Positions 3,085 through 28,558 of a stretch of DNA of 30,800 nt are shown one piece after another (positions within the stretch are counted from its first letter, which is position 1; each line of letters starts with the position of its first letter). Under the pieces are notes generated by a model. The model was not told where the DNA came from and made no database searches. It was given only the letters and a program-made list of their open reading frames with translations. Source of the DNA: a virus; IMG/VR virus record IMGVR_UViG_3300044302_006339, positions 1-30,800 of that record. The stretch is one strand, 5' to 3'. Made by a program: the position numbers and the translations under genes.

Positions 3085-5000
3085 AACCATCCCCCTGCGG
3101 GCTTGTGAACTTTGCCGGCCTTCCGCTTTTTGGTCGCCGGCGCTTCTGTTGGGTCTCCGTCTTTCCGGTACCGACTTAGATTGATCCCGAAGTGCTGCTG
3201 GAGAAGCCGGATTGCGGCGAGGTTGTAGACGGCTGTATCAAAAGGCTCGTTACGCCTGCCGCCAGCATCCCACTCAATCTGTTTGCGGCCCTTTCGATAA
3301 ACTATCTTTCGGCGCTCGTTGGTCAGTTGCTGGAAATAGGTTTCGTCAAACTCATCGGATACAGGCCAGTGCATGTAGCCTTCGCCAGGATTCATGATGC
3401 GGAAACGGCTAGTGATTATTTCCTTGGCGGTATCCGTTCCGATCATGGTTAGGTAGACGCCCTTTTCATTGCGCTTCCTGGGAAATGCCACAACCGGTTT
3501 TCCAGATTGGCTGTGCCCCTTTATCGGGATGAACTTCCGGATGCCGTATTTCTTGCTGAACTTGTAAACCTCGTCAGTGAAGTGGCCGCCCGAGTCAATC
3601 AGGGTGAGCTTCACGTCGTGAATCGCGCCACTTACGCTTGTGAATTGACGGGTTAAGCGCTTATGGAGCAGATCCCATATCTCAGACCGGGAAAGATCGC
3701 CGTATAGGCGCTCATAACTAATGTCGTAACTTTCCTCTCCGTTCACCCAGGCTTTCACCTCGATCTCAAGGCGGTCATCCTGGGTGTCAACCGCGGCTGT
3801 GAGAATGCACGAATCAACAGGCACCTCGGCCTGGTAATGCTCGCGTCTCGCGAACAGGCTTTCTGGGTCTACCTTCTCGCCTTCGGTGTCGTCCCAAGCT
3901 TCGCCCAGCGTGGTGTTGATAAACGTCTTGAGCTTGCTGGGGTCGTTCTTGGCCTTCAGGAAGTCGGTAACGATCCGGCGCCAGGTGGTGAATGGGCTGT
4001 AAGCTGTCCACACATGGAAGCCGACAGACTCCGGGGCCTCCCGTCGAGTTCCGTCGGCATCGAAGTAGCTAATGCCATCCTTTGTCCATATCCCGGTGGT
4101 CTCGCAACGCCAGACAATGTTTTCGTGCTGAGCCTGGTAGTCTCCCTGGCTGCCGAGGGTCGCGCAGTGTTCACAGAGATACTGAACCGACTTTGGGTTG
4201 TCGTCGTCCCACTTGAATCCAAAATGGGCCTCTTTGCCTCCCCACTTCAAGACCTGTTCTTCGAGGCAGTGCGGGCACGGAATGTGCGCCTTCAGCATGC
4301 ACTCAGCTTCGGAGGCCGCCTTTGTGATCTGGCAGGTGTCCAGAACCTTTGGAGTTGATCCTCGGACTGACTTTGGAAATACAGAGCCCTCAATCCGCTT
4401 GTCACCCAAAAACGTCGGAGAGCCTTCCTTCTCAACGTCCTGATCAAATGCCGCCAGCTCGTCGTAAGCAACCACGTCAACGGACTTTTCGCGATAGTTC
4501 TTGGCCGCTGTGCCACCAAGGCACCAGAGTTGTTTGCCGTTACTGAATCGCTTCGTGTCCAGGGTGTTGTCGCGGTGCTTCTTCCCAATCCAGGGCGCCA
4601 GAGCTTTGACCACCGGAACATCCCGGATCATGGTTTCAACGCTCGACTTCATGAAGCTTGAGGCCGCGCCATCGGTTGGCTGGAACAGCAGTAAGTTTCT
4701 GGTCTTGTGCTCAGTGAAATAACCGAGCGCAGCTCGGATCATCTGCGAATAGCCAACCCGGGCCGACTTGACGATGTTCACATAAACGATGTCGTCATGG
4801 CCGATGGCATTCATCATCGCTATCTGGAATGGCAGCGTCTGCCAACGGCCTTCGATGTAGCTGGATTCTGACGAGAGATAAAAGTTCTCATCCGCCCACT
4901 CCACGAGAGTCATGGGCTCCGGGCGAGCAAAAGCTTTCAACCCAACTCGAACAGCTCGCTTCAGATTCTCAAGCTGCGTCGAGTTCAGTGAGGTAGTCAT
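3081..5000 (-). CDS. Terminase large subunit, lambda gpA family
   Basis: This 639-residue packaging motor and endonuclease cuts concatemers at cos and drives DNA into the procapsid. The ATPase has the deviant Walker A KSARVGYSQ at residues 78-86, as in lambda gpA, and Walker B VVAYDELAAFD at 176-186. Two Cys pairs (CPHC 242-245, CEHC 276-279) suggest a zinc site. The C-terminal nuclease region has acidic residues in TAAVDTQDD (Asp405) and LIDSGGHFTDEVY (Asp469). Length matches gpA (641). The start overlaps the small subunit gene by 32 bases, also as in lambda-type phages. No frameshift is seen. Confidence 0.96.
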   Translation of the reverse strand: MTTSLNSTQLENLKRAVRVGLKAFARPEPMTLVEWADENFYLSSESSYIEGRWQTLPFQIAMMNAIGHDDIVYVNIVKSARVGYSQMIRAALGYFTEHKTRNLLLFQPTDGAASSFMKSSVETMIRDVPVVKALAPWIGKKHRDNTLDTKRFSNGKQLWCLGGTAAKNYREKSVDVVAYDELAAFDQDVEKEGSPTFLGDKRIEGSVFPKSVRGSTPKVLDTCQITKAASEAECMLKAHIPCPHCLEEQVLKWGGKEAHFGFKWDDDNPKSVQYLCEHCATLGSQGDYQAQHENIVWRCETTGIWTKDGISYFDADGTRREAPESVGFHVWTAYSPFTTWRRIVTDFLKAKNDPSKLKTFINTTLGEAWDDTEGEKVDPESLFARREHYQAEVPVDSCILTAAVDTQDDRLEIEVKAWVNGEESYDISYERLYGDLSRSEIWDLLHKRLTRQFTSVSGAIHDVKLTLIDSGGHFTDEVYKFSKKYGIRKFIPIKGHSQSGKPVVAFPRKRNEKGVYLTMIGTDTAKEIITSRFRIMNPGEGYMHWPVSDEFDETYFQQLTNERRKIVYRKGRKQIEWDAGGRRNEPFDTAVYNLAAIRLLQQHFGINLSRYRKDGDPTEAPATKKRKAGKVHKPAGGWL

Positions 5001-5619: not shown

Positions 5620-5919
5620 CTAGTCAAAGCGCTGCCCTACCTTCGCGTAGACACCGGCCATTGATCCGCCTGATCCAGTCGTGACAGCTCGCAGCGTTTG
5701 GTTGCGGTAGCCCTGGTAAACCTTTGCGTCGTCAGCAGTGAATGCTGCACCGGGAATGTCAGACCACGAACCATCGTTGGCTCGCTCTTGAAGCTTGACT
5801 GACTGACTATCCCAGGTGGACGCAGTAACCTTGATGAACAGGTTGTCAGCGGCCAGGGTAATTGCGTTGCCCGTAGCTCCCGCCCCTGCGTTGGAAAGGA
5901 GCTCAATTTGATTGCTCAT
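5620..5919 (-). CDS. Small beta-rich virion-associated protein, unknown
   Basis: A 99-residue protein without recognised family. It reads as alternating beta strands (ADNLFIKVTASTWDSQSVKLQ, then GYRNQTLRAVTTGSGG), with no signal peptide or membrane segment. Its ATG overlaps the stop of the upstream 727-residue gene as ATGA, so the two are translated together. It is the last gene before cos, at the far right end of the packaged genome. A role as a small structural or decoration protein is inference from position and composition only. Confidence 0.72.
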   Translation of the reverse strand: MSNQIELLSNAGAGATGNAITLAADNLFIKVTASTWDSQSVKLQERANDGSWSDIPGAAFTADDAKVYQGYRNQTLRAVTTGSGGSMAGVYAKVGQRFD

Positions 5920-8099
5920 AGTACGTCCTCAAAGATGGGGGATAGGATTGGCTTCAGTACGGGCTGGAGAATGCTGTTTCCGCCTGACACCTCATCTACA
6001 ACTCTCAGCGTCGCCGTAGCCTCAACCGCATCATTCCCCGCCGCATCCTGCCCGTTCAGGGTCATGGGGTAGGTATCGAGCGCCAGTTCTGGAAGCTGCT
6101 GGCTCCATGTACCACCGGAGGGGGTTGGGTTGTAGGTAACGCTATTGACCACCAGCGTGAGGCTTGATGCGTCTCCCGCACTGCCAGTAACCACCGGAGT
6201 GGTGTCTGTGGTGGTCAGGCTATTGATTGAGATAACAGGCGCCAGGCCATCCACAAGAACGCCGGAGGTATCGCCAACGCTGTTCAGCGTCAGTGTGGCG
6301 TTGTTGCTTGAGGCATCCTGTAGCGTTCCGTCTTCCAGTGTGAGGCTGGATACGGCAATGCCGTTATCGTCTTCGTCACCTGCCTGCACTGTGTAGGTGA
6401 ACACCAGGGCGCTTGAGCCGCTACCGGATACGTAGTCGGCCTGGCGAGACGTTCCGCCGATATCAAGATTCAGCGCCGGAGTGCCGGTGACCGTAACGGC
6501 TTCGTCCCAGTTGACGGTAAAGCTCAGGTCATCGCCAATGGCGTAAGTGCCAGCAGTTGGCACCCCCACGCTTTGGGTAACCGGCCCCGTCACATCGGGC
6601 GGCTGCTGGGTGCTGTTGTTCGTTACCGCCTGCCCGCTGAGCGTTGCCAGATCGTTTGGTGTGGCCGCCTGATCCTGGAAGCCGTCTCCGGGCTGCGTGT
6701 AGCCAATGGCCAGCGTGTCTTCGTCGGTCAGTGTGCGCGATGGCGTCAGGTTGATAATCGTGTCGTCTGAGCCATCTACCGATGCAGAGCTAACGGAGAC
6801 GCCTGCAAGGCTGATTGTCCAGCCGCCAGATCCGCCTGCGCCAACCTGCATGGATTCGGACATCTGTACGGCAATGTTATTGCCCGCCGTGGGTACAGAG
6901 GCGCTTGAGATGGTGGGGGCGGTATCGTCCGTGCCATCAACGGTCGCCGTCGCCTGAAACGTTCCGGTGGCGCCCGACTCTGGCACAAAATACTTCAGGG
7001 TTGCTGTGGAATCTCCGGCAGCAACCTCGGTGCTGTGGAGTGCAATGTCGTTGAGTTCGTCTTCCGCCGCGTCCATGGTGGCCCAATCGACGACAACCAC
7101 GCCGGAATCAAAGTCAGTTACAACGCCCCACTCTACCGGGCCATTCGTGGCGAATGCAGTATCGAAAAATGCTGAGTTCGCGTCAGGCTCACCGTGCGTG
7201 ACCAGCTCATAGGGGTAGCTGTTGGCGTAGCCAATGACCGTGCTGGCGGTCGTGCTGTCAACAGTAACGACCAGGTCCGCAGTGTCGTCGTCAGCAATCA
7301 GCGGGGCGGTGTAGCTGTAGGTTGACCCGCTGACCAGCGTCAGGGTGCCAACGTCTGTACCATTTAGTGTGGCGCTTACCGGGGCTGCGCTGTTATTCGC
7401 AAGGGTGAATTCAGCCGTATCGCCTTCGCTGGTGATATCGTCTGCGGCACTAACAGATGGCCCTGATGCAGCAGGATTGAAAACGGCCAGTGCGCCAACG
7501 GGGTCCGTCTCGCTGGAATATCTCAGCCCAAGCGTCTCCGATCCTGCCGCGCTCAACACGCCAGAAATCGCCGAGCCTTCATGCCCTGCTGTAGTTTGCG
7601 CGTGGTCAACCGTTACTGTCGTTGTTGTGGCAGATATAGTGGACGACTGGTTCAGCGTATCAGCCGGCGAGTTGGAGCCTGCGCCAGCAACTAGAACACC
7701 ACCATCAACGCCGTTAAACGTTATATCGAGGTCGAACAGGCTCACGCCAACAGCGGAATTGAAGTTATTGACGGGAGTAGCCTGATCAATTCCGCCAAGA
7801 GTGTAGACAGCCCCGGTAAATGCATCGTGGACCTGCCCGTCCCAATCAACCGCTATAACACTTGAGCCTGCGGGTATTTGCGACTCCAGTATGTAGTAAA
7901 CCCCGCCTTTGGCCGTCTCGGTGTCGCCCGTATAGGCTGCCCGAGTCATTGCAACACCACCAAAGGTTATGCCGACAATTTCACGGCTTGAGAATGCGGA
8001 TTCACCCGTGCCGGCAACAACAACCGCCCTATTGCTTCCGGCGACGGCTGTGTAGGAATCGCCCTCCTGTATTGCGAGCTTGCCAAGAATCGATGCCAT
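5916..8099 (-). CDS. Large Ig-like / SwmB-like repeat protein
   Basis: This 727-residue protein is built of beta-sandwich modules. Residues 1-210 form an N-terminal domain with ITFGGVAMTRA and GAVYTLGGIDQ. Residues 215-300 look Ig-like. Residues 393-495 (DDTAPTISSASVPTAGNN to GQAVTN) resemble bacterial SwmB-type repeats. Residues 503-617 (TGPVTQSVGVPTAGTY, WDEAVTVTGTPALNL) resemble the repeat common in large surface proteins. Residues 620-700 end with another Ig-like unit (APVISINSLTTTDTTPVVTG). There is no signal peptide, so it is probably a virion appendage or fibre component contacting the host surface. It is coupled to both neighbours (TAATG at its start, ATGA at its end). Confidence 0.8.
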   Translation of the reverse strand: MASILGKLAIQEGDSYTAVAGSNRAVVVAGTGESAFSSREIVGITFGGVAMTRAAYTGDTETAKGGVYYILESQIPAGSSVIAVDWDGQVHDAFTGAVYTLGGIDQATPVNNFNSAVGVSLFDLDITFNGVDGGVLVAGAGSNSPADTLNQSSTISATTTTVTVDHAQTTAGHEGSAISGVLSAAGSETLGLRYSSETDPVGALAVFNPAASGPSVSAADDITSEGDTAEFTLANNSAAPVSATLNGTDVGTLTLVSGSTYSYTAPLIADDDTADLVVTVDSTTASTVIGYANSYPYELVTHGEPDANSAFFDTAFATNGPVEWGVVTDFDSGVVVVDWATMDAAEDELNDIALHSTEVAAGDSTATLKYFVPESGATGTFQATATVDGTDDTAPTISSASVPTAGNNIAVQMSESMQVGAGGSGGWTISLAGVSVSSASVDGSDDTIINLTPSRTLTDEDTLAIGYTQPGDGFQDQAATPNDLATLSGQAVTNNSTQQPPDVTGPVTQSVGVPTAGTYAIGDDLSFTVNWDEAVTVTGTPALNLDIGGTSRQADYVSGSGSSALVFTYTVQAGDEDDNGIAVSSLTLEDGTLQDASSNNATLTLNSVGDTSGVLVDGLAPVISINSLTTTDTTPVVTGSAGDASSLTLVVNSVTYNPTPSGGTWSQQLPELALDTYPMTLNGQDAAGNDAVEATATLRVVDEVSGGNSILQPVLKPILSPIFEDVL

Positions 8100-14704: not shown

Positions 14705-15221
14705 AGGTCACCTCTGGCTTGTCCTCGAGGAAACAGGCGGATCCCGCCAATACTGCCTTCACTGTCTGTGTCGCCAGCCTGCCCCGGGCCATGCGCCTTT
14801 GCTTTACCGACTCTGGTTCAGGTAGCCCTCTCGGCAATACCTGGTGCGATGCGTGGTTGCAGTTTGTTCTCGCCAGCCTCAGAACCTTCGGGATGTCCGG
14901 CCAGGTATAGTCCGGGTTCCCATCCGCCAGCTTCTGCCTGAGTCGATCGAAGATGATGTCCAGGCCTTCAAAGCTGAACTTCCCGATCGTCTTCGCCCAT
15001 TCCTTGCGCATCACTTTCAGCTGGTCCTCTGAATCTCCCCACAGGGACTTGACCTTGCCCCGGCCGTAGATCGTCGTCAGACGACTGAAGAACACAGCGA
15101 CCTTCTGCTTCTCGTCTTCAGTGAATGCACCCCTAATCCCAGTTGTCGATGGCGTAGCCGGGATCTGTGAGTTGCTTGTCGAGTTCGTGATTTGGGCGAG
15201 AACCCGATTGATGTTTTCCAT
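14694..15221 (-). CDS. Replication protein P-like (helicase loader)
   Basis: A 175-residue protein. After a flexible, Ser/Thr-rich N-terminus comes a helical domain with FFSRLTTIYGRGKVKSLWGD, a helix WAKTIGKFSFEGLDIIFDRL and YTWPDIPKVLRLAR. This corresponds to the lambda P pattern, in which a DnaB-loading protein ends its core with a Pro-rich turn before the last helices. It would bring the host DnaB helicase to the O-bound origin. It follows the O-like gene with an 89-base overlap and has GAGG upstream of the ATG. Lambda P is longer (233). Confidence 0.75.
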   Translation of the reverse strand: MENINRVLAQITNSTSNSQIPATPSTTGIRGAFTEDEKQKVAVFFSRLTTIYGRGKVKSLWGDSEDQLKVMRKEWAKTIGKFSFEGLDIIFDRLRQKLADGNPDYTWPDIPKVLRLARTNCNHASHQVLPRGLPEPESVKQRRMARGRLATQTVKAVLAGSACFLEDKPEVTYEN

Positions 15222-16077
15222 GTCCAGCTACCTCGTCACGTTGGGCTTTTCGCTTCATTGCCAGCTTTGTCCAGTTGCGCCGTAGCGCGGCCGGAGATTC
15301 GATATTGCCGCTCCAGAAAGAGTCAGCCATTGCGAATGCGAACAGAGCCTTGATCATCTCTGGCGTTCGCTTGTCCTGCTCTCTGATGAGTCGGATATCG
15401 TTGGCCCAGGTGGTCATGTTTCGATTTGCAGGGGCGTCCCTGCCAAGCCGGTTATCGACAACCTGGGCGATGAGCTCGGCGAGCTCCACGTCGATCTCGT
15501 ATCCGAACTTTGTTCCGGAGGGATTTTGGACGGCGGCGCCTTCCACGGTTTTGGAAGTGGATTTTTTCTTGCCGGAATTCTTCGAGGAATAATCCGTAGG
15601 ATTATTACTTTGTCTTTTGTCTTTTAATTGATCGGAATTACTGTTCTCTAAAGGAACAGAATTACTGTTCACTGAACAGTAAGTTGAGTTTTTGTTCACT
15701 CGCAGGTTCTGACGGCCATCCGTCGCCTTTTCTCGGAAGCTCCATTGCTCGGTTTTCGTGTTGATCTTGAGCTCTCCCCGGCTACCTCCCCGACGGATCA
15801 GAACGCCAGCCTCGAGCAGTTCAGCAACCACCGTCGAACACCGCTGACGGCTCATGCCGGTGATCTTTGCAAGAAGCCCTCCCGGCACCTTCCCTTTCGG
15901 CTTTTGCCAGCCATAGGTGGCACGGATAACGCCCCACACAACGCGCTGCTGAGTCGCTGTCAGCGGGTGTGATGCCAAGCCCTCGGCCAGAGCATTAACC
16001 ACACGGCAGTAGCCGTCACCAAGCGTGGGCTCGTCATCCATTTGCTGCTCCGGATTGAACTGTATGACCTTGCCCAT
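15133..16077 (-). CDS. Replication initiator, lambda O-like
   Basis: A protein of about 314 residues. Residues 5-105 are the phage replication protein O winged-helix domain: LTATQQRVVWGVIRATYGWQK, GLLAKITGMSRQRCSTVVAELL and GVLIRRGGSRGELKIN. It binds iterons in the origin. Residues 115-165 are a low-complexity Asn/Ser/Lys linker that coincides with an AT-rich repeat region in the DNA, probably the origin itself. The C-terminal part would contact P. The ATG at 16077 overlaps the upstream antirepressor stop as TGATG. Confidence 0.88.
   Translation of the reverse strand: MGKVIQFNPEQQMDDEPTLGDGYCRVVNALAEGLASHPLTATQQRVVWGVIRATYGWQKPKGKVPGGLLAKITGMSRQRCSTVVAELLEAGVLIRRGGSRGELKINTKTEQWSFREKATDGRQNLRVNKNSTYCSVNSNSVPLENSNSDQLKDKRQSNNPTDYSSKNSGKKKSTSKTVEGAAVQNPSGTKFGYEIDVELAELIAQVVDNRLGRDAPANRNMTTWANDIRLIREQDKRTPEMIKALFAFAMADSFWSGNIESPAALRRNWTKLAMKRKAQRDEVAGHGKHQSGSRPNHELDKQLTDPGYAIDNWD
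15600..15695. other. Putative phage replication origin inside O
   Basis: This AT-rich stretch inside a GC-rich gene contains GAATTACTGTTC at 15635-15646 and again at 15659-15670, 24 bases apart, and a perfect inverted pair TTACTGTTCA / TGAACAGTAA at 15662-15682 around one central base. An adjacent T/A-rich stretch (15601-15632) could be the unwinding element. The lambda origin is likewise a set of iterons within the O gene. Confidence 0.68.
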
Positions 16078-16823
16078 CACGCCACCTTGTCCATTGCTTT
16101 ATCGTGAGTGAACTGGCCGTCCCATGTTTGCTTCATGGGCAGCTGGCCGGCGAGGTAGTATTTGTGGATCTGGCTGGCGCCCTTGTGCAGAAGGACGGGT
16201 GTGGACCGCAGCATTACCTGGCCATTGCTGCGAGGGATGTTGCTCTGCCGCTCCGTCAGGTAGTTGTCTCGGGCATAGGACGTCGCTCGCCAGTTGCCGA
16301 CTGCGTCCTTGTAGAGCCACTTGCGCTGTTCCAGCAGCTGGCAGATACGCTGGCAGTTCACGCCATTCAGGCGCTTGGAAAATTCAACCGGCGTCATGCC
16401 GTCGGCGAACAGGTTCTCGAGGGACTGGATTTGTAGTGACTGCTGATCATTCGCAAGCTTCAGGGTTTGGTTCTGCTCCACCTGGTCAGCCCAGGCCCTC
16501 GCCGCAATGGCCGGGTTGGTGAAATCAGGGAGGTTGGCGGCTTTCTGTTCGAGCTCCTGCCACCGATCAACCACAGCCGCGGTGAATTCCGGGGACAGCC
16601 GGGCAACCAGAACCAGAGAATCCCGCTTGTTGAAACGGTACTCCTGGTAAAGATTCCCCTTGTGCTCAAAATCTAACCCCTCCAATGGAGAGGTTAAAAT
16701 TCGGTCAGCCGCCAGCCTTTCAGCAGATCGTTTGACGTTGTCGTGACGACTGCCGGTAAGCTCCGCGATCTCGCGGCTGCTCATCGTTGGGCTACTGTTG
16801 CCACTTAGTATTAGGTCAGCCAT
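16077..16823 (-). CDS. Rha / KilAC-type antirepressor-like regulator
   Basis: A protein of about 248 residues with two recognisable parts. Residues 12-95 are Rha-like (MSSREIAELTGSRHDNVKRS, then YRFNKRDSLVLVARLSPEFTAAVVDRW). Residues 140-225 resemble the KilAC/ANT domain (RICQLLEQRKWLYKDAVGNW to LRSTPVLLHKGASQIHKYY). Such proteins inactivate phage repressors or modulate host functions. That is notable because the CI protein here seems unable to self-cleave. The ATG at 16823 has GAGGGA upstream; the ATG two codons earlier overlaps that site. A Rha role in host-factor-dependent growth is the alternative. Confidence 0.85.
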   Translation of the reverse strand: MADLILSGNSSPTMSSREIAELTGSRHDNVKRSAERLAADRILTSPLEGLDFEHKGNLYQEYRFNKRDSLVLVARLSPEFTAAVVDRWQELEQKAANLPDFTNPAIAARAWADQVEQNQTLKLANDQQSLQIQSLENLFADGMTPVEFSKRLNGVNCQRICQLLEQRKWLYKDAVGNWRATSYARDNYLTERQSNIPRSNGQVMLRSTPVLLHKGASQIHKYYLAGQLPMKQTWDGQFTHDKAMDKVA

Positions 16824-16843
16824 AATCATTCCCTCTTGGACGT

Positions 16844-17808: not shown

Positions 17809-17907
17809 GTGCGTTCCTCGCGTTCAGTTGCCGGGCTTTAAGGCGGGCCCGGAGTCGCCTCGTTAATGCGTGAAGTCCGCTGACAGGTATTGCCCCGCCT
17901 GCCCCCT

Positions 17908-18069
17908 TCACGCCACCTGGGCTCGGCCACTACTGGACGCCTCACGGCGTTCTACAAGTTCGCAACCATCGTTTCTTGATGCGGGCCGGTCGCTGGCCGG
18001 CATTGCCGCGGGCAATGTGCAGCCTTGTGAGTGAGGCAATCCCCTGCACTGGGTCGCTTGATTCCGCAT
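17908..18069 (-). CDS. Possible 53-residue protein in cro leader region
   Basis: An ATG at 18069 opens 53 codons in a region otherwise lacking genes. The product is Cys-containing and polar, with PASDRPASRNDGCELVERRE and a C-terminus rich in Ser, Arg and Ala. It has a loose feel of the Ash-type small phage proteins, but I cannot confirm that. There is no good Shine-Dalgarno sequence, and the ATG lies within one arm of a long hairpin. Its TGA overlaps a GTG that opens a further 62-codon frame (17723-17911), which overlaps the exported protein's signal peptide. Treat as tentative. Confidence 0.4.
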   Translation of the reverse strand: MRNQATQCRGLPHSQGCTLPAAMPASDRPASRNDGCELVERREASSSGRAQVA

Positions 18070-18151
18070 CCGTGGAGGGCTCTACCTGACGCGACAGATT
18101 GGGGACCTGTCAGGTCATCCTTGGCTTAGGGAGTAGAGCCCTCCCGGATGC
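18066..18151. repeat. Long hairpin in region downstream of cro
   Basis: GCATCCGTGGAGGGCTCTAC (18066-18085) pairs with 18133-18151 over 19 positions with one bulged base, enclosing 47 bases. The loop holds its own CCTGAC / GTCAGG pair (18085-18090, 18109-18114). Smaller hairpins follow toward 18000: CATTGCC-GCG-GGCAATG near 17999-18017. On the minus strand this is the RNA after cro, so a riboregulator, attenuator or small RNA is possible. Confidence 0.55.
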
Positions 18152-18236
18152 GCCCTGCTTCCAGGGCAAAACACTGTTAATCTATTCAGTACCCAAAACC
18201 CCATTACTTACATCACCAAAAATGGGGAAAATGAAA

Positions 18237-18461
18237 TCATGCAGCTGCGCCCTCATCTCCGAAGACGAGGACATAACGACTCATGACACGATCAGGGGTT
18301 ACGTCAGAGCTCGCTTTCTCAAGGCGCTCAGCCAAAGAAGATGAAGGAGATCGATGATTACCGGCCAGTTGCCATAGATAACCAACGGTCGTCTTCGCTT
18401 TCTTCGCAACCTGATCGCGCTCCTGGTCGCTGGCGAGGGTTATCCACTGCTTAACATTCAT
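18237..18461 (-). CDS. Cro-like / YdaS-like HTH protein
   Basis: A protein of about 74 residues with a compact helix-turn-helix (ITLASDQERDQVAKKAKTT, VGYLWQLAGNHRSPSSSLAERLEKA), similar to Cro and YdaS-type proteins. It is divergent from the CI-like gene and is the first gene of the early-right transcript, the position of cro. It should bind the shared operators and lock the lytic state. The ATG at 18461 follows AAGGG; a GTG one codon upstream is possible. The predicted promoter lies 30-60 bases upstream. Confidence 0.82.
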   Translation of the reverse strand: MNVKQWITLASDQERDQVAKKAKTTVGYLWQLAGNHRSPSSSLAERLEKASSDVTPDRVMSRYVLVFGDEGAAA

Positions 18462-18475
18462 CACTCGACCCTTTT

Positions 18476-18543
18476 ACTTTAGCGGTGTGATAAAGTTACC
18501 GCCTGCCGTTTTTAGCGTCAAGCACATTTATCTTTCTGCTAAA
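18476..18543. promoter_or_regulatory. cI-cro control region: pR and operators
   Basis: On the minus strand TTGACG (18521-18516) is 17 bases from TAACTT (18498-18493), a candidate pR for cro. ACTTTA (18476-18481) and TAAAGT (18491-18496) form an inverted pair over the -10 region. Further half-sites of the GCTAAA/TTTAGC type occur at about 18511-18516 and 18538-18543. The same half-sites recur at the left promoter near 19571-19635. The cI promoter itself is weak and not clearly identified. Confidence 0.68.
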
Positions 18544-18561
18544 TAAAGCGAAAATCTGCGC

Positions 18562-19506
18562 ATGGATATAAACGGCATCAGAAAAGAAAATTTGCGTGTG
18601 ATGATTGAGCAGGCTGGCGGCCGGCAGGCTTTTCTCGCCAAGGTTGGCCGATCCGATTCACAGATCAGCCAGCTATTAAGCAATTCTGGAAAAGCCCGCA
18701 ATATTGGCAATGAGCTAGCAAGAGATTTTGAGAGACTCTGCGGGTACCCCGAGGGGTTCATGGATAGTCGCCGCCCCCTGTACTCTGTCCAGAATCCAGA
18801 TGGAAGCGTTATTTACAAAAGAACAAGGATGGGACCTCAGACTGGCAAGAAGCGGAGCCAGGGTGCAGTAGAGAACGAAACCGATTTTGCCCTAATCTCA
18901 CCTGGAGCGCCGGAGCGAGAAGAGAGCCAAATGCCGGACTTTTATTTCGAAGAACCCGGCGGCCAAACCAGAATGATCGTCGACGCGAAGAGATACGAGC
19001 GCGACCCCAAAGCAGCTGCGTTCCGAAGAGAGATGGAGAGAGAAATAGAGGACCTGCTGAGCGGAATCTCTATGGATGCGGTACCTCTTGTATTTCTACC
19101 CCCATATCGCGTAGAGGCATGCGAAGCGTCTCCCTCAGGATTCAAGGTCTCTCTTTCCGATTCTTATAGGCGCCCCTTCACTGCCTCTTCCGTGCCAGCC
19201 CATAGCAGAGGGCATGCGCGAATCGGGTTTACACTGGTCTCAGATGAAGCCATGAAGCCTCTGATTAGTGCGGGCGACATGGTGGTCATATCCCCTCTTG
19301 GAGACCAGAAGATCAAAGGCGGAAGCATCTACGCCGTTCAGATCCAGGCAGAGATAAAGATCTGCAGGCTATTCACCAAACCGAACGGAAGCCTACGGAT
19401 TGTCAGCGACAACCCGCAATTCCCAGAGGAACAGGTGGACCGAAACGACCTTGATAAGATAACGATAATAGGGGAAGTCATCTGGAGAGAAGGCAGGATC
19501 CGATAA
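18562..19506 (+). CDS. CI-type repressor with S24 fold lacking the catalytic Ser
   Basis: A 314-residue lysogeny repressor. Residues 8-70 form an HTH domain (VMIEQAGGRQAFLAKVGRSD, ISQLLSNSGKARNIGNELARDFERLCG). A long linker of about 130 residues follows. Residues 205-314 are the S24/LexA-like dimerisation domain (GHARIGFTLV, KPLISAGDMVVISP, GGSIYAVQIQ). Where active family members have the Ser of the (G)DSM motif, this protein has DEAM (Ala230); the partner Lys is present (Lys266, in EIKICRL). No Ala-Gly cleavage site is evident. It therefore probably cannot cleave itself in response to RecA, so induction may use an antirepressor. No strong ribosome site precedes the ATG. Confidence 0.9.
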   Translation: MDINGIRKENLRVMIEQAGGRQAFLAKVGRSDSQISQLLSNSGKARNIGNELARDFERLCGYPEGFMDSRRPLYSVQNPDGSVIYKRTRMGPQTGKKRSQGAVENETDFALISPGAPEREESQMPDFYFEEPGGQTRMIVDAKRYERDPKAAAFRREMEREIEDLLSGISMDAVPLVFLPPYRVEACEASPSGFKVSLSDSYRRPFTASSVPAHSRGHARIGFTLVSDEAMKPLISAGDMVVISPLGDQKIKGGSIYAVQIQAEIKICRLFTKPNGSLRIVSDNPQFPEEQVDRNDLDKITIIGEVIWREGRIR

Positions 19507-19526
19507 ACACCAGACACAATCACACC

Positions 19527-19554
19527 TAAAAGCCCGCCCCTGGCGGGTTTTTTT
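19527..19554 (+). terminator. Terminator after cI
   Basis: CCCGCC, loop CCT, GGCGGG and TTTTTTT form a compact rho-independent terminator 27 bases after the repressor stop. The A-run on the left side could also let it act on leftward transcripts. Confidence 0.87.
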
Positions 19555-19570
19555 ATGCCCGCTTAACTTT

Positions 19571-19635
19571 TTGCTAAAGTTTTTCTGTATTTTGTTGACG
19601 AATCTTTATCGTGTTGCTAAATTTATTTTAAGCAA
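19571..19635 (+). promoter_or_regulatory. Left-operon promoter (pL-like) with operators
   Basis: TTGACG (19595-19600), a 17-base spacer and TAAATT (19618-19623) give a good promoter for the gene at 19653. An imperfect palindrome, TTGCTAAA to TTAAGCAA (19614-19635), covers the -10. A second site with AACTTT-TTGCT-AAAGTT spans about 19565-19581. Both carry the ACTTTAGC-type half-site of the cI-cro region, so CI and Cro probably control both promoters. Confidence 0.72.
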
Positions 19636-19652
19636 ACACGGAGTTCAATAAA

Positions 19653-20054
19653 ATGCCACGCAGAACACACCAATACGAGCACATGGAGCCGGAGCTGGGT
19701 GATACCAGTCACCTATCCCCGCGTCAGCGCGATGTTGTTGACCTTCTCCGCAAGGGCAAGAGCAATCCCGAGATCGCCGCCGAGCTGGGGATCACCCTCG
19801 ATACTGCAGCCAGCCACGTAGACGCCCTGAAAGATCGGTTCTGCGCCATCAACAAGCAGGATCTGATCTGCCAAATGTGGATTCACGGCATTCTTGAGCG
19901 CCCACGGATGATGAGCCTAGTTGCTTTCCTGCTTTGCACTCTCGCTGCGCTGCCTTTCGCAAGGAATCCTGTCCGTCCCGCCCCTCAAGGCAGGCCCAAA
20001 GTAGCTGTCATGTACCGCATTAACCGCCAAGAGATCTCTGGGGTGCTGTCATGA
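19653..20054 (+). CDS. LuxR-type HTH protein with C-terminal hydrophobic helix
   Basis: A 133-residue protein. Residues 21-80 are a LuxR/GerE-type HTH (LSPRQRDVVDLLRKGKSNPE, IAAELGITLDTAASHVDALK). Residues 86-103 are hydrophobic (MMSLVAFLLCTLAALPF), possibly a membrane anchor, followed by a basic tail. It lacks any receiver or sensor domain. It is the first gene after the operator-controlled left promoter, the position of N in lambda, so it may regulate later genes or host genes. ACGGAG precedes the ATG by 10 bases. It overlaps the next gene as ATGA. Confidence 0.82.
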   Translation: MPRRTHQYEHMEPELGDTSHLSPRQRDVVDLLRKGKSNPEIAAELGITLDTAASHVDALKDRFCAINKQDLICQMWIHGILERPRMMSLVAFLLCTLAALPFARNPVRPAPQGRPKVAVMYRINRQEISGVLS

Positions 20055-20323
20055 GCAATGTATCTATCGAACAAGTAAGGGCGGCAGCTTCAGAAATTGG
20101 CGCAGCCGTGAACTACGAGCCTCAGTTTGGCCTTTTGGACGCCTGGACGCCGGACGGGATGGTTTTCAGTTGCAACAGCCGGCACTGCGTTACTCATCAT
20201 TTTCTTAAAGGCCACCTGTATCAGCAAAAGCTGGCGGATCTGCTGAGCGATATCGAGTTCGGCATCGAGCCCTGCGATGACGAAGATTGCGAGATCTGTA
20301 CTGGTGAGGTGGCGGAATCATGA
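20051..20323 (+). CDS. Small acidic Cys-rich protein, unknown
   Basis: A 90-residue protein with CNSRHCVTHHF in the middle and CDDEDCEICTGE at the C-terminus, which together could bind a metal ion. The N-terminus is a helix (IEQVRAAASEIGAAVNY). It is coupled to the LuxR-like gene by ATGA and followed at once by a terminator hairpin. No family recognised. Confidence 0.7.
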   Translation: MSNVSIEQVRAAASEIGAAVNYEPQFGLLDAWTPDGMVFSCNSRHCVTHHFLKGHLYQQKLADLLSDIEFGIEPCDDEDCEICTGEVAES

Positions 20324-20355
20324 TCAATCCCCTGCTGGCGTTGACGACGCTGTTT

Positions 20356-21560: not shown

Positions 21561-22175
21561 ATGGTTACCTGGACCGCACAAAAGGATGACTGGCTGCGAT
21601 CGCTTTATCCGGACACACCAAACCGGACCATCGCGAAGATGCTTTGCTGCAGCTATCTGGCTGTGAAGAACCGGGCCACGACTCTCGGGCTGAAAAAGGA
21701 TCCCGGTTACATGGCCAGTAAGCCTGGCTGTTTCAGACCTGGACAAACCAGCTGGAACAAGGGGCTGAGCTATCAACCCGGTGGCCGGATCGCTGAGAAC
21801 CAGTTCAAGCCTGGGCACAAACCCCAGACTTGGGTGCCGGTGGGCACTGAGGCGGTCGACAAAGATGGCTACCTAAAGCTCAAGGTCAGTGACGATCGGA
21901 CAGTGCCGAGCCGGTACAACTGGAAGTTTGTCCACGTCATGAAGTGGGAGGAGTACCACGGCCAACCGGTGCCACCGAAGCATGTCGTTCGCCTGAAGGA
22001 CGGCGATAAGAGAAACTTCGATCGGGAGAACCTGGCGCTGGTGAGCATGGCCGAGAACGCAATCCTGAACAAGTTCTTTGCCATGAAGAATCCGCCGGAG
22101 GGTGGCTTCGATGTCCTCCTGAATCTGGCCAGGATCAAGCTGGCCACCACCAAACGTAAACGGGAGATGGCGTGA
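21561..22175 (+). CDS. HNH endonuclease-like protein
   Basis: A 204-residue protein. Residues 5-48 look like a Myb/SANT-like HTH (WTAQKDDWLRSLYPDTPNRT, IAKMLCCSYLAVKNRATTLG). Residues 85-175 form an HNH nuclease: GHKPQTWVPVGTE, DGYLKLKVSD, a first His in FVHVMKWEEYHG, a second in VPPKHVVRLKDGDK, and RNFDRENLALVS. Free-standing HNH proteins of this form are often homing endonucleases but can also be phage packaging or defence nucleases. It overlaps the next (frameshifted) gene as TGATG. Confidence 0.86.
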   Translation: MVTWTAQKDDWLRSLYPDTPNRTIAKMLCCSYLAVKNRATTLGLKKDPGYMASKPGCFRPGQTSWNKGLSYQPGGRIAENQFKPGHKPQTWVPVGTEAVDKDGYLKLKVSDDRTVPSRYNWKFVHVMKWEEYHGQPVPPKHVVRLKDGDKRNFDRENLALVSMAENAILNKFFAMKNPPEGGFDVLLNLARIKLATTKRKREMA

Positions 22176-27606: not shown

Positions 27607-28025
27607 CTGATTTTACAAAGCTGCCTCGAAATATCGCCGATTGCATGAAGCGGGCAGGCACCCCGCTGTCAGACGATCAGCTAATGCTGCTGGTCGGATA
27701 CTTGGCGCCAGTTCAGCAGGAACTGCAGCAAGCCGAGGCGCGGTGTGCGGAGCTGGAATCTGAAAACGAATCCCTTTGGGAAACGTTCGTTAAGGTTTCG
27801 GACTATCTAGGCGTCGACAACGAAGCGGCTCGCAAGATTCCCGGAAAGCCTTCGCAGGTATTTATCAGCGCCATTATTCGAAAGCAGGCAGAGGCGGTTG
27901 AGCAGGCAGCTCTGTGCTTTGGTGGTAGAGACTTTGCAGATGTACGCCTTGGCCTTTCCGAGCAGGCCCAACAATTACGACAGCAAGCCGACGAACTGGA
28001 GAAAGGGGGCGAAGGGTGCCAATAA
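27603..28025 (+). CDS. Coiled-coil protein, unknown (140 residues)
   Basis: Helical and Gln/Glu-rich, with two heptad-like stretches (LAPVQQELQQAEARCAELES and LSEQAQQLRQQADELEKGG). No catalytic motif. ATGA overlap with the preceding gene, and its end overlaps the next gene's GTG start by ten bases. Confidence 0.66.
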   Translation: MTDFTKLPRNIADCMKRAGTPLSDDQLMLLVGYLAPVQQELQQAEARCAELESENESLWETFVKVSDYLGVDNEAARKIPGKPSQVFISAIIRKQAEAVEQAALCFGGRDFADVRLGLSEQAQQLRQQADELEKGGEGCQ

Positions 28026-28558
28026 AGACAAACAAGCTTCCCCCTCTAGAATGGCTCCGGGAACACTTTGAGTACGACGCCAAGACGGGGAAGCTCACAT
28101 GGAAGAAGCCTCAGTTTCGAAGTAAGGCAAAGGTGGGCGCCGAAGTTGGCGTCACCAGGGTTACCCAGTGGGGCAAGAGGTACCGGTGCTTTTTTATTCG
28201 AGGAAAGATCTACCAGGTGCATCGGGTTATTTGGAAGATGCAGCGTCACGAGATACCAGATGGTTATGAGATAGATCACATTGACGGCAACAGCCTCAAC
28301 AATCGAATTGATAACTTAAGGTGCGTTACTAGTTCGGAAAACCGCAAGAACAGGAGAATGGCAAGAAACAATACCACTGGAATAGTTGGTGTTCGCCAGT
28401 TGAGGTACGGGAATAAGTGGGGCGCCCACATAAAGGTTGAGGGCAAATATATCCACCTCGGCACATTTGACACCAAAGAATCTGCTGCGAGAGCCAGAAA
28501 AGAGGCGGAGCGTGCGCACGGATTCCATGAAAATCACGGCAAAGAGGTGGCGGCATGA
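28016..28558 (+). CDS. HNH-AP2 homing endonuclease-like protein
   Basis: A 180-residue protein with two domains. Residues 15-115 are an HNH_3 nuclease: LREHFEYDAKTGKLTWKKP, the first His in YQVHRVIWKMQ, DHIDGNSLNNRIDNLR (catalytic Asp-His and Asn residues), then RCVTSSENRKN. Residues 117-170 are an AP2 DNA-binding domain (TTGIVGVRQLRYGNKWGAHI, YIHLGTFDTKESAARA). This pair is the classical form of phage and plastid HNH-AP2 homing endonucleases. The start is GTG at 28016, within the previous gene's end. It could mobilise this region or act in phage competition. Confidence 0.93.
   Translation: MPIKTNKLPPLEWLREHFEYDAKTGKLTWKKPQFRSKAKVGAEVGVTRVTQWGKRYRCFFIRGKIYQVHRVIWKMQRHEIPDGYEIDHIDGNSLNNRIDNLRCVTSSENRKNRRMARNNTTGIVGVRQLRYGNKWGAHIKVEGKYIHLGTFDTKESAARARKEAERAHGFHENHGKEVAA

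Follow-up and report, generated by a model that had tools for sequence, protein, structure and literature searches.

Organisation of the immunity region

We analysed the 30.8 kb of viral record IMGVR_UViG_3300044302_006339 (positions 1-30,800), referred to here as the window. The phage is a Marinobacter-type prophage, with kinship to Marinobacter phages PS3 and PS6 (one protein 85% identical). An intact open reading frame on the plus strand (18562..19506, beginning with the ATG at 18562) encodes a CI-type repressor of 314 aa. Upstream of and divergent from it lies the gene for a Cro-like protein (18237..18464, minus strand), and leftward of cro there follow, in order, a RusA-like gene, the gene for a protein with Rha and KilAC (Roi-like) domains, recognised by Pfam and PHROG (16077..16829, minus strand), and the gene for replication protein O, assigned from domain and profile matches (15133..16080, minus strand). 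The RusA-like call was made by eye, and a Pfam search of that gene returned no match. An earlier note on this DNA described the Rha/KilAC frame correctly in other respects but bounded it at 16823, which is a second in-frame ATG. On the 3' side of the repressor gene there is a terminator-like hairpin, then a pL-like promoter (19595-19623) and, as the first gene past the left operator, a gene for a small protein that combines a LuxR/GerE HTH with a hydrophobic segment (19653..20054, plus strand).

Predicted loss of the catalytic dyad from an S24-fold repressor

The repressor has the layout of λ CI, with an N-terminal HTH (residues 1-70), a linker (71-171) and an S24/LexA-fold C-terminal domain (172-310). 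Its HTH resembles those of phage repressors (PHROG 12107, 4e-13), and Peptidase_S24 spans residues 221-307 (Pfam, E=4.4e-13). In an AlphaFold2 model built on a 20-sequence alignment both the HTH and the S24 domain are confident, with pLDDT > 90 across most of the latter, and Foldseek matched the model to LexA, λ CI, UmuD and 186 CI (2fjr). Confidence in the predicted S24 fold is thus high.

By model and alignment, this domain is an apparently intact S24 fold that is catalytically dead. We used an alignment of 20 repressors (A2) and a separate S24 profile built without the window protein to locate the catalytic positions, and both place Ala230 (GCC, 19249..19251, plus strand) in the column of the nucleophile Ser, the substitution originally noticed. 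The same note had named Lys266 (19357-19359, plus strand) as the partner Lys, and this assignment fails: the catalytic column holds residue 268, a Cys (TGC, 19363..19365, plus strand; EIKICRL vs ELYIKRL or MLRVKIL in relatives), and Lys266 stands two residues upstream of it. By alignment, then, both dyad residues are lost, which goes beyond the earlier claim of Ser loss alone, and because a change from Lys to Cys takes at least two base changes the result is not one sequencing error. The cleavage region reads RVEACEASPSGF vs EVELAAGSGA in relatives, with CEASPSG where they have AAG. As anticipated, no Ala-Gly (or Cys-Gly) is present in this region of alignment A2, and the former cleavage-site strand is represented by PPYRVEACEASPSGFK (19099..19146, plus strand).

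From the absence of Ser, Lys and site in a domain that retains the S24 fold, we infer that self-cleavage has been lost, and consider this well supported. RecA filaments would thus not be expected to set off self-cleavage, in agreement with what the note had expected. The domain has probably been kept for dimerisation or higher-order assembly only, given that neither dyad nor cleavage site survives, and the repressor would bind operators on both sides of its own gene through the N-terminal HTH. An annotation of 'S24 peptidase' or 'LexA family' therefore does not imply SOS inducibility.

Cleavable cousins share the predicted operators

Two related loci, L088 (IMGVR_UViG_3300030119_000987) and L100 (3300020458_000006), encode full-length repressors that are 31% and 28% identical to that of the window overall, with much higher identity in the HTH. 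Both repressors keep NSMEP, RVKIL and an AAG site, so that Ser, Lys and cleavage site are intact. What the three loci have in common is the HTH family, Cro, the LuxR-like neighbour (this and Cro are conserved in L088) and operators of the form TTTAGC-N5-GATAAA; in addition, the cro-cI intergenic DNA of the cousins can be aligned with that of the window. The 17-bp operators occupy corresponding places in the right region of L088 and L100, with similar sites on the left. For the window, the comparison predicts TTTAGCGGTGTGATAAA (18478..18494) in the right operator region, followed by a weaker site that begins at 18511 and by TTTATCTTTCTGCTAAA (18527..18543). On the left, the predicted operator TTTATCGTGTTGCTAAA (19605..19621) overlaps the pL-like promoter, and a weaker second one, CTTAACTTTTTGCTAAA, is predicted at 19562..19578. 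Five of the seven TTTAGC/GCTAAA hexamers in the window fall within these two short regulatory regions.

Sharing operators and HTH with cleavable cousins, the window therefore appears to combine a dead C-terminal domain with an immunity system that is cleavable in those cousins; the DNA-binding target of the repressor has been conserved while its C-terminal domain differs. The loci also differ in that L088 has no Rha/KilAC gene and L100 encodes a Rha-only protein. The earlier note held that Ser in homologues of the same clade would mark this copy as a sporadic mutant. Cousins with the same operators do have Ser, but the window repressor is not a sporadic point mutant, because its C-terminal domain has diverged far and three features have been lost together. 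The result is a matched natural pair, with one cleavable and one apparently dead repressor on the same operators, suited to the question of how RecA-dependent induction disappears in temperate phages and what takes its place.

A sister phage, L086 (IMGVR_UViG_2902000069), is nearly identical to the window over long stretches (91-97% over most aligned stretches on both flanks). The repressor it encodes, of 152 aa, has an HTH but no S24 domain; by sequence, two near-identical phages thus carry two different kinds of non-cleavable repressor. The immunity cassette between the flanks has been cleanly replaced (18170-20326 in the window vs 3203-4560 in L086). Their Rha/KilAC proteins are 64% identical overall, with a nearly identical C-terminal half and a diverged N-terminal half.

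Dyad loss among S24 domains

Ser and Lys are present in 93 of ~95 distinct S24 domains in the loci that we fetched, and only those of the window and L114 lack both residues; the figure should not be read as an unbiased rate, since the loci were chosen for their resemblance to the repressor or the Rha protein. L114:6001-6729 (IMGVR_UViG_2515154147) is an S24-fold phage repressor with Glu/Arg as its dyad. The same window-free profile reads Gln/Gln at the dyad positions of N15 CB. In a tree of S24 domains, where long branches are poorly placed, the window falls apart from the L088 clade and its branch is very long (2.28); those of L114 and N15 CB, elsewhere in the tree, are very long too. This scatter suggests that the three dead domains are independent losses, and separate losses, with relaxed or redirected evolution afterwards, would account for the pattern. 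Loss of the dyad with retention of the fold has therefore probably arisen several times.

We found no close homologue of the C-terminal half in IMG/VR, GTDB, phages, plasmids or 124 congeneric genomes (of a genus found with the Rha/KilAC protein and taken to be Marinobacter-like from a prophage match), in searches where GTDB was represented by contigs of one genome per species and the IMG/VR and GTDB scans caught only relatives with exact short peptide patterns, so that distant members were possibly missed. Taking the above together, we regard 18562-19506 as, very probably, a prophage immunity repressor with a dead S24 domain. This confidence concerns the repressor and does not extend to the SOS route discussed below.

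Relation to known non-proteolytic repressors

Non-proteolytic phage repressors are already established, and the window repressor is another case, of the kind of N15 CB and 186 CI in which the fold is kept and the dyad lost. N15 CB was found by experiment to be non-proteolytic and is not cleaved; the same study assigned 210 of 271 linear plasmid-like phages to the non-autoproteolytic class (PMC10432266). Like the window repressor, N15 CB is a phage repressor of LexA/S24 fold that has lost both dyad residues, but its HTH, operators and host are different and it lies far away in the S24 tree. N15 is induced by an antirepressor of the SOS regulon (cited in PMC10432266), which has not been identified as a Rha/KilAC protein. 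Coliphage 186 CI likewise has an S24-like fold without cleavage and is induced through the LexA-controlled antirepressor Tum (PMC7708051). However, 186 CI barely matches the S24 profile, and we identified no Tum homologue. The Gifsy repressors, too, are not cleaved and are inactivated by LexA-controlled antirepressors (PMC3121763), but they are short proteins without the cleavage motif; the repressor of L086 is closer to the Gifsy type. Beyond these systems, the window contributes a matched pair of cousins that use the same operators, along with the corrected finding that neither catalytic residue is left.

Possible routes to induction

If RecA filaments do not trigger self-cleavage, induction must come about by action on the repressor in trans or by loss of the repressor. 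The most likely trans route would be a LexA-controlled leftward transcript starting near 18172-18191, which would express the early operon, including the Rha/KilAC gene, without pR. The candidate SOS site is the LexA-box-like CACTGTTAATCTATTCAGTA (18172..18191), between cro and the leftward Rha/KilAC operon. We scored it with a matrix of E. coli LexA boxes, validated on three genomes of the Marinobacter-like genus, in which it found strong lexA and recA sites (19.4-21.4 bits). The site scores 17.7 bits and nothing else in the window exceeds 10. Judged by 1,000 order-2 Markov windows, a maximum this high has a probability of 0.009 per window, for a resemblance that was sought after the fact. 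At the corresponding place in L088 and L100 there is a similar but broken sequence (11.2 bits), and a LexA-like box is absent from L086, another phage with a non-cleavable repressor. No sigma-70-like promoter is recognisable at 18172-18191, and a plain scan for CTGT-N8-ACAG with one mismatch allowed gave no excess. The site could answer the objection that CI itself silences the Rha/KilAC operon, and we treat the SOS route as a lead, speculative and rather unlikely as matters stand. Still more improbable is the complete scenario, in which a lineage within the shared-operator immunity group exchanged its cleavable domain for a dead S24, and SOS sensing passed to a LexA box downstream of cro that drives the Rha/KilAC operon, a box kept only in broken form by the cleavable cousins. 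If true, it would let cleavage and the antirepression that replaced it be compared side by side in nature.

Another way to view the locus is as that of a decaying or locked prophage, in which cleavage was lost without replacement and rare induction occurs by fluctuation, by host proteolysis or through the antirepressor of another phage. The long branch, the multiple losses in the C-terminal domain and the lack of a promoter at the LexA-like site are consistent with this. However, the repressor frame is intact, as are the operators, Cro and the early operon, all three of which are also conserved, and the S24 fold scores well by both Pfam and AlphaFold2. We consider decay possible but, on balance, unlikely.

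It is doubtful, too, that the Rha/KilAC protein binds and inactivates CI, having replaced cleavage. Both of its domains are present (Pfam Phage_pRha, 1.3e-9; ANT, 2.9e-5, just under the cut-off), and it matches PHROG 63, 'anti-repressor Ant' (E=7e-58), although PHROG names are annotation only. A role in induction would accord with the LexA-like site upstream of the gene and with L086, which likewise pairs a Rha/KilAC protein with a non-cleavable repressor and in which the N-terminal half of that protein differs from the window's, as the immunity regions do. Against it, full-length Rha+KilAC homologues adjoin intact S24 repressors in Pseudomonas phages F10 and AV001, and a full-length homologue is also present in the virulent phage ICP1, where its annotation is DNA-binding protein (Roi in one related record). 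Homologues of the Rha domain lie beside intact, cleavable S24 repressors in dozens of loci, and in L011 a protein with a Rha domain 78% identical to the window's accompanies a cleavable repressor. Both the ICP1 homologue and those next to a cleavable CI speak against a role dedicated to inactivating the repressor. We also rejected the rule that Rha/KilAC marks non-cleavable repressors: the IMG/VR loci with Rha+KilAC had no intact S24, but F10, AV001, ICP1 and L171, which has KilAC only and an intact S24 repressor, contradict it.

Thus, of the earlier proposal that cleavage had been replaced by antirepression, the loss of cleavage is well supported, whereas the antirepression half is not, in view of the homologues that adjoin intact S24 repressors; nor, with homologues beside cleavable repressors and in a virulent phage, can the Rha/KilAC protein be taken as the natural non-proteolytic inducer. 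Although the gene may still act on CI, this cannot be read from its presence, nor does that presence identify the inducer.

Two further alternatives have little to recommend them. That cleavage persists in trans, or with Cys268, Lys266 or some other residue taking over, is highly improbable: Lys266 lies on the same strand as the Lys column and only two residues from it, but the nucleophile at 230 and the Ala-Gly site are missing, and N15 CB, in which both residues are changed, does not cleave. Equally remote is the idea that the linker (71-171) makes induction respond to DNA, as a nuclease or sensor domain of PD-(D/E)XK-like type, for although MPDFYFEEPGGQTRMIVDAKRY looks like PD...DxK, residues 89-145 are disordered in the AlphaFold2 model, Pfam and homologue searches found no match to the segment, and the L088 linker is of similar length but unrelated sequence. 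The PD...DAK motif that recalls the PD-(D/E)XK core lies at 18931-18999 (residues 124-146).

Other features of the window and its relatives

Small LuxR/GerE-type HTH proteins open the left operon in several Marinobacter phages (window 19653-20054; L088:4871-5275; L156:3950-4378; L086:3251-3625); some of them have a hydrophobic segment and end in an IGRKEI-like tail. A LuxR-like/smORF module as in PMC10432266 was considered and set aside: within the cassette, conservation extends to the LuxR-like gene and not to the small gene that follows it. In L156 (Marinobacter phage AS1), whose repressor is 136 aa, a stand-alone small KilAC-type protein (4375-4653) overlaps the end of the LuxR-like gene. 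A C4-like antisense RNA in the noncoding DNA at 17810-18237 was discounted on the absence of an Rfam match. Elsewhere in the window, two HNH endonuclease genes (28016-28558, with an AP2 domain, and 21561-22175) probably encode homing endonucleases, and a long protein (5919-8099) has matches to repeat domains only. Between cro and the next leftward genes there is a conserved noncoding stretch (17810-18170, minus strand) that contains a hairpin of the GCCCTGGAAGCAGGGC type as well as a long stem (GCATCCG...CGGATGC), and similar hairpins, with the stem sequence changed, are present in L086, L087 and L088.
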